A stretch of DNA of 64,000 bases from Cheilinus undulatus (taxonomy: Eukaryota; Chordata; Actinopteri; Labriformes; Labridae), in NCBI RefSeq assembly GCF_018320785.1, contig NC_054875.1:30137157-30201156 (forward strand). The letters run 5' to 3'. Positions 41,201-45,546 of this stretch are shown in pieces. The notes beneath the pieces were generated by a model that had not been told where the DNA came from, ran no database searches, and was given only the letters and a program-made list of their open reading frames with translations. Positions within the stretch are counted from its first letter, which is position 1. Each line of letters begins with the position of its first letter. The translations under genes were made by a program, and so were the position numbers.

Positions 41201-43625
41201 AGAGTGGCTTGTAAATGAATGAATGGGGAAATTCATGACTTGAACAGTGATTATTAATCATTATGCACTTGTAATGATATTTGGGGTTGGAGAGGTGATG
41301 CCATGGGGCTGCCATGTGGACATAGTGTATTCTTCAGATTTCGCCCACAGTTGATGAAGTAGGCGCTTAGGTGAGTCGAATGTCTGCTCAGGAGTTTTGA
41401 AAATTAGAGGGAACATTGGTGATACCCTTCCCGGTAGTGACCAAAATGACTCTAAGAGCGCACTGACAATTCATCCAAGAGGTCACAAAAGAACCCAGAA
41501 CAACATCTAAAGATCTGTAGGCCTTACTGGACTCAGTTAAGGCCAGTGGTCAGGATTCAACAATAAGAGGAGACCGGGTGAAAGATGGCATCGATGGAAG
41601 CCACTGCTAACCAAAAAGAACACAAAGGCCCAAAAAAATCTTGGTGATCCTCTAGACTTTCAGAGAAATATTTTGTGGACTGATGAGACATGACTTAAAC
41701 TTTTTGGAAGGTGTAAGTCCTGTGATATCCCAAACACACCAGCAAGTCCAACTCTGAATAGCCTAAAGAAATGTAGATTTTAGGGTTGTCTTGTCAAAGT
41801 CCAGACTTAAATCTGATTGAGACGCTGTGGCCTGACCTTAAACAGGTCATTCATGCTTAAAAAACCCTCCCATGTGGTTGAACGAAAACAATTCTGCGAA
41901 GAAGATTTACTCCACAGTGTGGGAGAGACTTTTGTCCAGATATTGCAGACGCTTGATTGTGATTGTTGTGCCATGTGTAGATTTAGGGGCCGATTACTTT
42001 TTTCACTTAAGGCCAGGTAGGTTTCGATGACTTTTTTCTTTAATAGATGAACTCATCGTTCAAAAAAGGAATTTTGCAGTTACTAAGGTTATCTTTGTCT
42101 TATTTTAAAATCTGTTTAATGATCTGAAATATTTAAGTGTGACAAAAAAAATATGCAATACATCATAAATCAGGAAGGGGACAAATACTTTCTCACAGCT
42201 CTGCATTTTTGAGGTAAGCATTGCAATTTAAGCATCAAGTACTAAGTAAAAATAAACACAAAAAGTCAAAACAAGAAGGTCTAAGCTTTCATTCAACGGC
42301 ATGAAATTGACTTGTTAAACTCAGATTATTCATGACAGTGGTTTTATTGACCAGTACTTTGATTTCTCTTAAAGTTCATTCTGGTAAAAAAAAGTGACTG
42401 CTCTTTTACTTGAGTACAACAGTCTTGTACTCTTTCCACCTCTGGTATTTTGACAGAAAACTATGAGATTTACTAGCATGTAAAGTGCTTGATTAATTTA
42501 CAGGCCCAGATTCACCTCCAACCTTATTCAAAGGGACAGACATGATAAACAATCTCCCCAGCTCTCCTCGGCTGATGAGGACTCATCTTCCTGTCCACTT
42601 CCTACCAAAGTCCTTTTTTGAGCAAAACTGCAAGGTCAGTCAAATGATCCTGGCTTCTAAGGCTAACACAGATGGGAATGTGAGGCCACTGGTCAGATTT
42701 TGAACAATTTTGAACTTTTTTTCCAGACTGGAAAGCTGGTTAAATCTTTCAGATATGACCACTAACAAAATAATTCAAGGTCGCTTGATGTTCATGTGTT
42801 ATTTCTCATTGGTAGATCATTTATGTTGGTCGCAATGCCAAAGACAGCGTGGTGTCTTATTACCACTTTGAACGAATGAGCTTGTTATGTCCTGAGCCTG
42901 GAGACTGGAGCAGTTACGTCCAGAGGTTCATGGAGGGGAAGAGTATGTCTTAACACTTTAAAGAGGCTGTTTTAAGTAGTAAAATGTTCGCTTAATTGTA
43001 TTGAACAACACTGAAGTGTTTCATGTGTTGTTTCTGTGTTGCTCAGTGGTGCTTGGATCCTGGTATGACCATGTGTCTGGCTGGTGGGAGAAAAAGAAGA
43101 CGTATCCAAAAATCCATTACATGTTCTACGAGGATTTGATTGAAGTATTTCATCTATTTCATCAGTTATTCATCTTTTCCAACTCAGACTACAGCTCTCC
43201 ATGAGTGTGTTTCATACCATAACATCTGATCCTTTCACTTCTAGGACACTGGACGAGAAATTGACAAACTCTGCGACTTTCTTGGGCTGACTTCCTCTGT
43301 TGAGGAGAGGGAAGGAATTGCGGGACGAGCTCAGTTTAGTAGTATGAAAAAAGACAGCATGGCCAACTACTCCACACTTCCTGTAATGGACTTTAAAATA
43401 TCTCCTTTCATGAGAAAAGGTAACTTGATAAATAAAACGTGGGTGATGTGACTCAGATTAGATCTTTACTCAAAATAAAAAACACCTGACTGACTCTCTG
43501 TGGTTTCTGCAGGAAAGGTCGGAGACTGGAAGAACCATTTCACTGTTGCCCAGAATGAAGAGTTTGATGAAGACTACAAGAAAAAGATGAATGACCCGTC
43601 ACTCAGGTTTCGCACTTTAATTTGA
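38225..43625 (+). CDS. Cytosolic sulfotransferase gene B (SULT family), chimeric, 7 coding exons
   Basis: Exons: 38225-38363, 38484-38612, 42504-42634, 42816-42942, 43047-43144, 43245-43419, 43513-43625. They join in phase to 303 residues. Motifs: YPKAGSTW (about 43-50), catalytic histidine in RTHLPVHF, 3'-phosphate site [11 protein letters not shown] (about 138-148), and [10 protein letters not shown] near 265-274 followed by TVAQNE. Compared with gene A, the third exon here is 30 bases longer ([11 protein letters not shown] start), as in gene D. Exons 1-4 and the first 30-40 bases of exon 5 resemble D and the orphan exon set; from there to the stop the gene is nearly identical to A. It is thus a natural fusion of two paralogues. 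All motifs are intact, so it is probably functional. The large intron at 38613-42503 is filled with nested transposons. Confidence 0.92.
39299..39697. mobile_element. Non-autonomous DNA element (MITE) inside the Tc1 copy
   Basis: The left end GAGGCTATATGTAACC and right end CTTACATATAGCCCC are inverted repeats, flanked by CTTAAA / TTTAAA-type duplications. The interior has no coding content. The surrounding Tc1 sequence resumes directly on the far side. Confidence 0.7.
39904..41418. mobile_element. Non-autonomous hAT-type transposon with 8-bp target duplication
   Basis: Inverted ends CACTGTTCCCTCTAA (39904) and TTAGAGGGAACATTG (to 41418) are flanked by GTGATAAC (39896-39903) and GTGATACC (41419-41426). 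CA-starting ends plus an 8-bp duplication are the hAT signature. The interior (1.5 kb) has no recognisable transposase. It is inserted in the Tc1 remnant. Confidence 0.85.
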
Positions 43626-45539
43626 AACCAGCTCTGAACAAGCTGTGTTCATGTGGAGACATATGACTGATGGACATGTTACATTACTTTAATAAAAGAA
43701 AATATAAATAAAATAGAAAATATATGTAAAGTCACCTCATATGTGATAGTAGGCAAGCAAAGTATATCATTTTATAATAAGCCTTGTGTTAGCTTGCATG
43801 TGTTTCATTAGAGACAAGCTGTAGTAGTCTTTTTTAATCTTTTATACTGACACTCTTGAAATCAGTCTGAATAAAAAATAGAGCTCATTCATCTCTATGT
43901 TATGGTTTTCAGTCTTTTTTTTAGACCTTTTACATCAAAGTGGTTAGACTATTTATGATGCATTTAAGTTAAAATCACTTTTCACTAGATATATAATTCC
44001 CTGCTTAGCATATGGCTATCTGGCGACAGATTATTGTGTTCATAAATGAATCATGCAGGCAAAATTCTTAATTTAAATGCTCTTTCTATGCTGCACAAAA
44101 TGTGACAGTATTAAGAGGAATAAATCTTTAAATCTGACCATACATGAACAATCATCTTGCCACTTTTTTGTCTTTAATCAAGATTTTTTTTTTAAAGATT
44201 ATTATCTGTCATTTGTTGAGAGTTCAGTTGCCCTGGTTCACCCCCATAATGCAGAACTCTACCCCCCAACCCCTGTTTCCAAGTCTAGTAGAGACCAGAC
44301 CCAGTGCTCAGCAAGGCCAACTTCCACGGCATACTGGTTTTGAAACTCTGTTAATCTAAAACTGATCTCCACATGGTGTAATTACTAAAAATTAAACCAT
44401 GTGTTTCTGGTTCGAGGATGTATTTCTCACAATGAGGGAGAAAGCTGTTAAAAGTGACCCTCTTGGTTCGTGCTGCAAACAAGTCCTGAATGCTTTGTGA
44501 GAAGCTTGCATTGTTTTCTAGTGTATTGTGTTTCTCATTGCATGTTACATTTGCTTTTGTGAGTACTGAAGCTGAATTCTTCTTTTAAGTCTTTAAAATT
44601 AAACTAAAATGACTTACAGTATATGTTGCTATTCTATTGTGTTACTTTTAAGGGTTAAAATGTGAATATACACAGGAAAATTTAGGAGAGTTATGTTTTT
44701 TGGTGTGAGTAAACTATAGCAGAGTTAATTACGCTCTGGATGGAGCCGAAATCCCCAAAAATATATTCTTAGTTGAAAGAGAGTTGAAGTTGAACAAGAA
44801 TGTAAAAATTCACAATCAGTCATCATTTCTGTAAGAGTCATTGCAGCATCTTTGACTCTGAAGTTTTTACTCTGAACCTGGATGTGACACTGGAAGCGTT
44901 ATTTACCACGCCCCGTGTGATGAATGTGTTTAGACCAAATACAGCATCTGTACTGCATATTGAGACACCACGGTCATGTTGTTATGCATTGTTTTTGTCT
45001 TGTTTTGCATTTTTATGCACTTCTTTTGTCAGTCTACCTGAACATAAGAGTCACAACACTACTGGACTTGTTTCCCTCTTTTCTAATAATCCTTGGTATT
45101 ACTGGACACTTTTAAAGATTAATTATCAATGTAATCCATTCGTTGCTGCAGCCCTGTAAAACGTGCTATTTAAAATTTTGTACTGAGTGCCAGAGAGCCA
45201 TGTAGTCATGCAAACTGACGTAACCCATGTAAAACTATCCACTGCCCTTGTGTCTACCAAAATGTATGGCTACAGGTGTTTTAAGCCCCTGAAAAAACTA
45301 CTTCCTGTTTCATGGCGAACAATGCATTGTCGCAACAGCATGCCATAAAAACACAGTTTTAGAGGGAATTGGGTGATCTAGAAAGAATGGCCCCTGTCTT
45401 TGAAGTAAAAGCAATTTTCTGCTCAATATTTCAAATCTGCTGATCCAGACACAACTCCCAACATACCTGTATGTCAAGGTTAGTGTGGAGAAGGTTTTTT
45501 ATTGAACAACACTGAAGTGTTTCATGTGTTGTTTCTGTG
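43000..45539 (+). repeat. Segmental duplication, copy 2, bounded by a repeated stretch of gene B intron
   Basis: The inserted segment (about 43080-45498) is the near-identical copy of 33.57-37.05 kb. On either side lies the same 39-base intron stretch starting ATTGAACAACACTGAAGTGT: 43000-43038 before it and 45501-45539 after it. This arrangement fits insertion of gene A sequence into gene B, with the left junction in homologous exon sequence and the right junction back in B's intron. Confidence 0.9.
45425..45478 (+). promoter_or_regulatory. First-exon-like module, copy in the duplication
   Basis: Near-identical to 36960-37029, ending TATGTCAAG|GTTAGT. Through the duplication it now lies about 70 bases upstream of the orphan exon set. 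Confidence 0.4.
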
Positions 45540-45546
45540 GTCTCAG

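Follow-up and report, generated by a model that had tools for sequence, protein, structure and literature searches.

The main finding of this study is that gene B, a member of a SULT1-like tandem array in the fish Cheilinus undulatus, changes origin in the middle of a coding exon. It is native in exons 1-4 and at the beginning of exon 5, the sequence from there to 45498 is a 2.41 kb block derived from the neighbouring gene A (33574-37049), and the native exons 5-7 lie directly behind the block. The 3' part of B was therefore not replaced; an A block was inserted in front of it. The window, i.e., the whole stretch of 64,000 nucleotides analysed (RefSeq assembly GCF_018320785.1, contig NC_054875.1, positions 30,137,157 to 30,201,156 of the forward strand), provides the coordinates used throughout (Table 1). 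The first-pass annotation of this DNA had described B as a recent chimera with its left junction inside a 98-bp exon and with A as the source of everything past the switch, which both trees and identity profiles bear out. It had also assigned the 3' half of B to A, where the source is right, although the share is smaller (the last 114 of 303 residues, 38%) and the sequence was added rather than exchanged. The event is young enough for both junctions to be read base by base—one homologous, one joined, with the target duplicated—and it shows tandem enzyme families trading C-terminal parts while the recipient retains its own.

Junctions and relatives of gene B

An alignment of A 32400-37800 with B 41900-46200 shows little likeness before coding exon 4 and a moderate degree within it; from inside exon 5 to 45498 the match is near-perfect. 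Positions 8, 23 and 32 of exon 5 set B apart from A and unite it with its displaced counterpart, the T at 32 being confined to these two among the eight sequences compared; from position 42 (43088) to the exon end, B is identical to A. The exon had been read in this way before; at position 6, a C is present in B alone, unlike both A and the displaced exon. Because the affinity of B changes between exon positions 32 and 42, the switch point lies within the 9 shared bases 43079-43087 (GGCTGGTGG). This junction is in register and homologous: A and the displaced exon, taken with 17 bp of intron, are alike at 100 of 115 sites (87%), with a run of just 9 identical bases at the switch site. Beyond it, the near-match to A reported up to about 45498 holds on re-measurement, with 18 substitutions in ~2,400 aligned sites (9 in 1,440 plus 9 in ~960) and two small gaps, i.e., a divergence of 0.75%. 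Not counted are a stretch found only in A (35005-36089), the 15 bp in its place in B (44524-44538), and a mismatch and a gap where the right junction falls.

At the other end of the block, the intron 4 sequence starting with TATTGAACAACACTGAAG at 42999 appears again at 45500, straight after the A-type flank, and both copies continue into exon 5. Because B's intron 4 recurs there and runs into the exons past 45547, these exons are B's own; the exon at 45547, previously taken for an orphan, is the first of B's displaced exons 5-7. Since the displaced exons carry the second copy of B's intron end, B is the recipient. The two copies form a direct repeat with two substitutions and one 1-base gap in 88 aligned sites. 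The 39-base intron stretch noticed earlier on both sides of the block is indeed repeated, but measures 40 bases (42999-43038 and 45500-45539, 40/40 identical) and is part of this 88-89 bp repeat, which extends into exon 5. The right junction is non-homologous, with one added base, and the departure and return points on B are separated by 89 bp. Two other origins can be rejected: A as the recipient, because B's intron is interrupted and then resumes past the block, and a retro-copy, because the block retains its introns.

The second line of evidence is a sharp shift of nearest relative along B, from E/D to A, which is seen in identities, trees, and approximately unbiased (AU) tests. The array includes A, B and D inside the window and E and F (minus strand) beyond it; among further SULT1-like relatives on C9, models were made for G1 and G2 but not for a third gene. 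In exons 1-4, B is 83.7% identical to E, 79.8% to D and 69.2% to A. In exons 5-7, it is 97.4% identical to A and 79.0% to the displaced exons, which share 88.6% with E and 85.5% with D. The A/B identity is thus far from the uniform level that the first-pass annotation had named as incompatible with a chimera. Trees were built from 7 rows for exons 1-4 and 8 rows for exons 5-7, with the third C9 gene left out. In the former, B groups with E (support 100/98) and then with D and E (100/100); in the latter, B groups with A (100/100), while the displaced exons group with E at only 90/90 and then with D and E (95/98); the branch of F is marked as long in this tree. For exons 1-4, a forced A+B grouping is rejected by the AU test (p 3e-69); for exons 5-7, the same holds for forced B+displaced (p 4e-70) and B+displaced+D+E (1e-4). 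Synonymous divergence between A and B past the switch is 0.031, compared with 0.42 for displaced/E (codons 190-303) and 0.43 for B/E (codons 1-175); therefore, the insertion is far younger than these gene duplications.

The substitutions within the block are not evenly spread. Five of the 18 are clustered in 38 bp of exon 7 (43580-43617; simulated probability 0.002). Past the switch, A and B differ at 6 of 345 coding and 12 of 2,046 non-coding sites (Fisher p 0.035), a weak signal that comes mostly from the exon 7 cluster, and four of the six coding changes are non-synonymous. A conversion patch in exon 7, which could be suspected because three of the five differences match the displaced exon, is rejected. 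These states are explained by changes in A, since two of them are present in all six of displaced, D, E, F, G1 and G2 and one in five of the six (not F); moreover, nearby differences of the displaced exon are not found in B.

Origin of the A-type block

We consider it probable that the block arose by one homology-primed template switch from B into A, closed by end-joining or by a return to B. A DNA end or stalled strand in exon 5 of B would have switched to the homologous site in exon 5 of A, 9.5 kb away, the remainder of gene A and its flank would have been copied, and the copy would have rejoined B about 89 bp upstream of the departure point, almost without homology. This would have set A exons 5-7, 3' untranslated region (UTR) and flank before B's own exons 5-7 and doubled the acceptor region. 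The 89-bp spacing of departure and return is a prediction of a single event and therefore counts for one template switch; both the single event and the direction of copying are what the structure of the locus suggests. Of the three mechanisms offered by the first-pass annotation, template switching fits best and unequal exchange needs a deletion as a second step. Simple gene conversion, i.e., a replacement with both ends homologous, does not fit, as the native exons are kept (45547-46113) and the right end is non-homologous.

Events of this kind have been described. In mammalian cells, according to PMC5104497, long-tract conversion or template switching can start by homology, copy kilobases, and finish by end-joining with microhomology or added nucleotides, as proposed here; the case in its Fig. 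6A likewise combines one homologous breakpoint with one breakpoint at which a single nucleotide was added. There are differences: those events follow induced breaks in mouse cells with homologous templates, whereas gene B records a natural event between exons that are 87% alike, in which the target was duplicated and not trimmed. The locus is a clean example of a known event type.

Several points weigh against a single template switch. First, two complex cases described in PMC5104497 lost sequence at the second end (9 bp in one, ~3.5 kb in the other, the latter with a 36-bp duplication), and an 88-bp target duplication by this route would require a staggered break or a replication-type return. 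Second, 1,085 bp of A are missing from B's copy, which means that either the copy skipped them or a later change occurred. Third, the exon 7 cluster may reflect a further event there. Finally, the gene trees are small, and the analysis covers the sequence of a single assembly.

The main rival, an origin in two steps, appears unlikely to us. In the first step, exon 5 of A would cross over unequally with exon 5 of B, giving the order A, B/A hybrid, B; in the second, a later deletion of ~6 kb from the A-type flank into intron 4 would take away exons 1-4 of the intact B together with its upstream part, so that exons 5-7 are left as a remnant. This yields an identical final sequence, and the right junction does resemble ordinary end-joining. 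Hybrid genes are commonly produced by unequal crossing-over in tandem clusters, CYP2D6/2D7 being an example, and B resembles such hybrids in being an in-frame fusion of a 5' part from one paralogue with a 3' part from the neighbouring one. It differs from them in that no spacer duplication is seen and the donor block is immediately followed by the 3' end that the recipient has retained. In addition, chance would have had to place the end of the deletion, within a unit of 9.5 kb, no more than ~89 bp from the crossover, for which we estimate from the coordinates a probability of roughly 2% under a uniform distribution, and a run of only 9 identical bases within 115 bp at 87% is poor ground for crossing-over. 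The A sequence in the block ends (A 37049) before B intron 4. As for the spacer, neither the 114 kb around the window nor 70 kb of the C9 cluster contains a further long, near-identical copy of 37050-42998. Besides self, there were 26 and 11 matches, respectively, of which the longest is 921 bp at 77.7% and the top identity, 93.8%, belongs to a piece outside the eight longest. The duplicated spacer expected of unequal crossing-over was thus absent from these 114 and 70 kb, although the later deletion could mask it.

An assembly artefact, with part of A or of A's other allele misplaced within B, is very improbable. The A/B divergence in the block would be compatible with alleles, but there are no N bases in the window or across the surrounding 114 kb, the 46 contigs for 1.17 Gb point to a long-read assembly, and the two target copies already differ from each other at two sites and one gap. 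Furthermore, base-exact junctions, a doubled target and an intact frame are, in our judgement, atypical of a misjoin. It is scarcely credible that B's own exons 5-7 were first duplicated in tandem and that A then converted the first of the two copies: B does carry two such sets and conversion between paralogous exons is common, but the A-type 3' flank continues for 1.9 kb where A and native B show no detectable similarity (A 34111-36975 against 46113-52300, no match at E 0.01) and which a conversion tract could hardly reach, so this route was rejected.

Predicted products of gene B

Downstream of its exons 1-4, gene B has two complete in-frame C-terminal exon sets with acceptors. Joined to either ending, exons 1-4 give 303 codons without an internal stop, and 38 of the 303 residues distinguish the resulting chimeric and native proteins, with 37 of these differences falling within residues 190-303. 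Both match PF00685 over residues 35-294 (268.3 bits for the chimera, 263.8 bits for native B) and contain YPKAGSTW, RTHLP, RNxKDxxVSY, RKGxxGDWK and KxxxTVxxxE, motifs that we take to represent the 3'-phosphoadenosine 5'-phosphosulfate (PAPS) cofactor site, the catalytic His and the dimer motif. The last of these motifs is also named in PMC7694633. The chimera matches 36 solved sequences with E values no higher than 1e-40; the top two are named S4 sulfotransferase and tyrosine-ester sulfotransferase, followed by SULT1C2, 1A1, 1C3, 1B1 and estrogen sulfotransferase. Domain and motifs thus identify both products as SULT1-like cytosolic sulfotransferases, which are predicted to be enzymatically active.

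The A-type ending has AATAAA at 43691 and 43707, 66 and 82 bp past the stop, while the displaced set is followed by ATTAAA at 46488 and AATAAA at 46667. From its position, the A-type ending should be B's main one, and the main product is most likely a B/A chimera, in which B supplies exons 1-4 and the first part of exon 5 and A everything after that, poly(A) signals included. With its splice signals kept 2.5 kb downstream, the native ending could possibly serve as a minor alternative last-exon set or be a relic beginning to decay. It is conceivable, and we put it forward tentatively, that one copying error created a two-product gene, whose exons 1-4 would be spliced either to the A ending, giving a chimeric enzyme with an altered C-terminal third, or to the native one, which would still be spliceable because the event duplicated the splice acceptor. 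If so, a new function would have been gained and the old one kept without duplication of the whole gene. The locus provides a clean test of whether such an insertion ends as an extra isoform or as a pseudogenised remnant, and SULT substrate range matters to detoxification and hormone handling.

A parallel exists in human SULT1C3, whose forms a and d arise from duplicated last exons of a single gene. Like SULT1C3, B is a SULT1 gene that may give isoforms. The structure in PDB entry 2h8k bears the name "SULT1C3 splice variant d", and SULT1C3a and SULT1C3d were expressed as separate enzymes in PMC7694633. The difference is that the extra exons of B stem from a neighbouring paralogue, via a hybrid exon. 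In the titles and abstract openings retrieved, mostly from non-subscription literature, on fish SULT1 duplication or conversion, template-switch chimeras, SULT1C3, and tandem alternative last exons, neither this locus nor such a SULT structure appeared.

Donor gene, array and flanking sequence

The donor stretch of A contains 1,085 bp absent from B's copy, which may have been skipped in copying, lost later from B, or gained by A. An old dispersed repeat lies inside it (~35047-35430), with matches that are 66-85% alike among the best 40 of 969 candidates scored. The ends of this repeat do not coincide with the edges of the stretch, so a recent transposon is unsupported. A 12-bp perfect inverted repeat is found near those edges, at 34980 and 36067. 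A templated origin for 14 of the 15 bp that B has instead is not significant, the observed exact match being reached by 40 of 500 shuffles for a 711-bp stretch and 21 of 500 for 150 bp.

Table 1. Coordinates of gene B, its donor and related features in the window
Feature	Position	Strand	Details
Gene B, native coding exons 1-4	38225..42942	+	38225-38363, 38484-38612, 42504-42634, 42816-42942
Gene B, hybrid coding exon 5	43047..43144	+	98 bp, AG/GT flanked; native B to 43078, A from 43088
A-derived block	43088..45498	+	rest of exon 5, exon 6 (43245-43419), exon 7 (43513-43625), 1.9 kb of 3' UTR and flank
Direct repeat, copy 1	42999..43087	+	89 bp, native B: 48 bp from the end of intron 4, 41 bp from the start of exon 5
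Direct repeat, copy 2	45500..45587	+	88 bp: intron 4 end with acceptor, exon 5 start
Right junction	45499		a single added T; A sequence ends at 45498 and native B intron 4 resumes at 45500; microhomology ≤2 bp
Displaced native B exons 5-7	45547..46113	+	45547-45644, 45735-45909, 46001-46113; open frames, AG/GT
Gene A	30873..34111	+	7 coding exons, 292 aa, open frame, internal AG/GT, PF00685
Gene A, coding exons		+	30873-31008, 31111-31239, 31418-31518, 33324-33450, 33533-33630, 33731-33905, 33999-34111
Donor stretch	33574..37049	+	from inside coding exon 5 of A to 2.9 kb beyond the stop
A-only stretch	35005..36089	+	1,085 bp; B's copy has 15 bp there (44524-44538)
Gene D	52391..63045	+	relative of native B, 7 coding exons; used for comparison

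Each of the genes modelled (A, B, D, E, F, G1 and G2) has seven coding exons and an open frame, and internal boundaries are AG/GT in A, B, D, E, F, the displaced exons and exons 1-4 of G1. Exon 3 measures 131 bp in B, D and E versus 101 bp in A, F, G1 and G2. With tblastn, no separate complete gene was found to match a gene "C" named in the first-pass annotation. In a genome-wide search that scored 40 of 526 candidates and gave 47 matches, nothing other than A and B themselves reached at least 90% identity over more than 77 bp. The second SULT1-like cluster lies at G000:C9:36790001-36860000 (L026-L032), and its third gene showed no clear last exon in tblastn. The spacer 5' of gene B (36976-38182) resembles 48723-49926, which is 3' of the displaced exons, and 67280-68400, which is 5' of gene E (62-84% alike); these are probably leftovers of old tandem duplications, and the right end of the donor stretch falls within one such spacer repeat (36976-37166). 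Elsewhere in the window, a 373-codon open frame at 845-1966 is, as judged by eye, beta-1,3-galactosyltransferase-like, and a 333-codon open frame at 6959-7960, judged in the same way, is gag-like, with a CCHC-type zinc knuckle and a protease-like motif.

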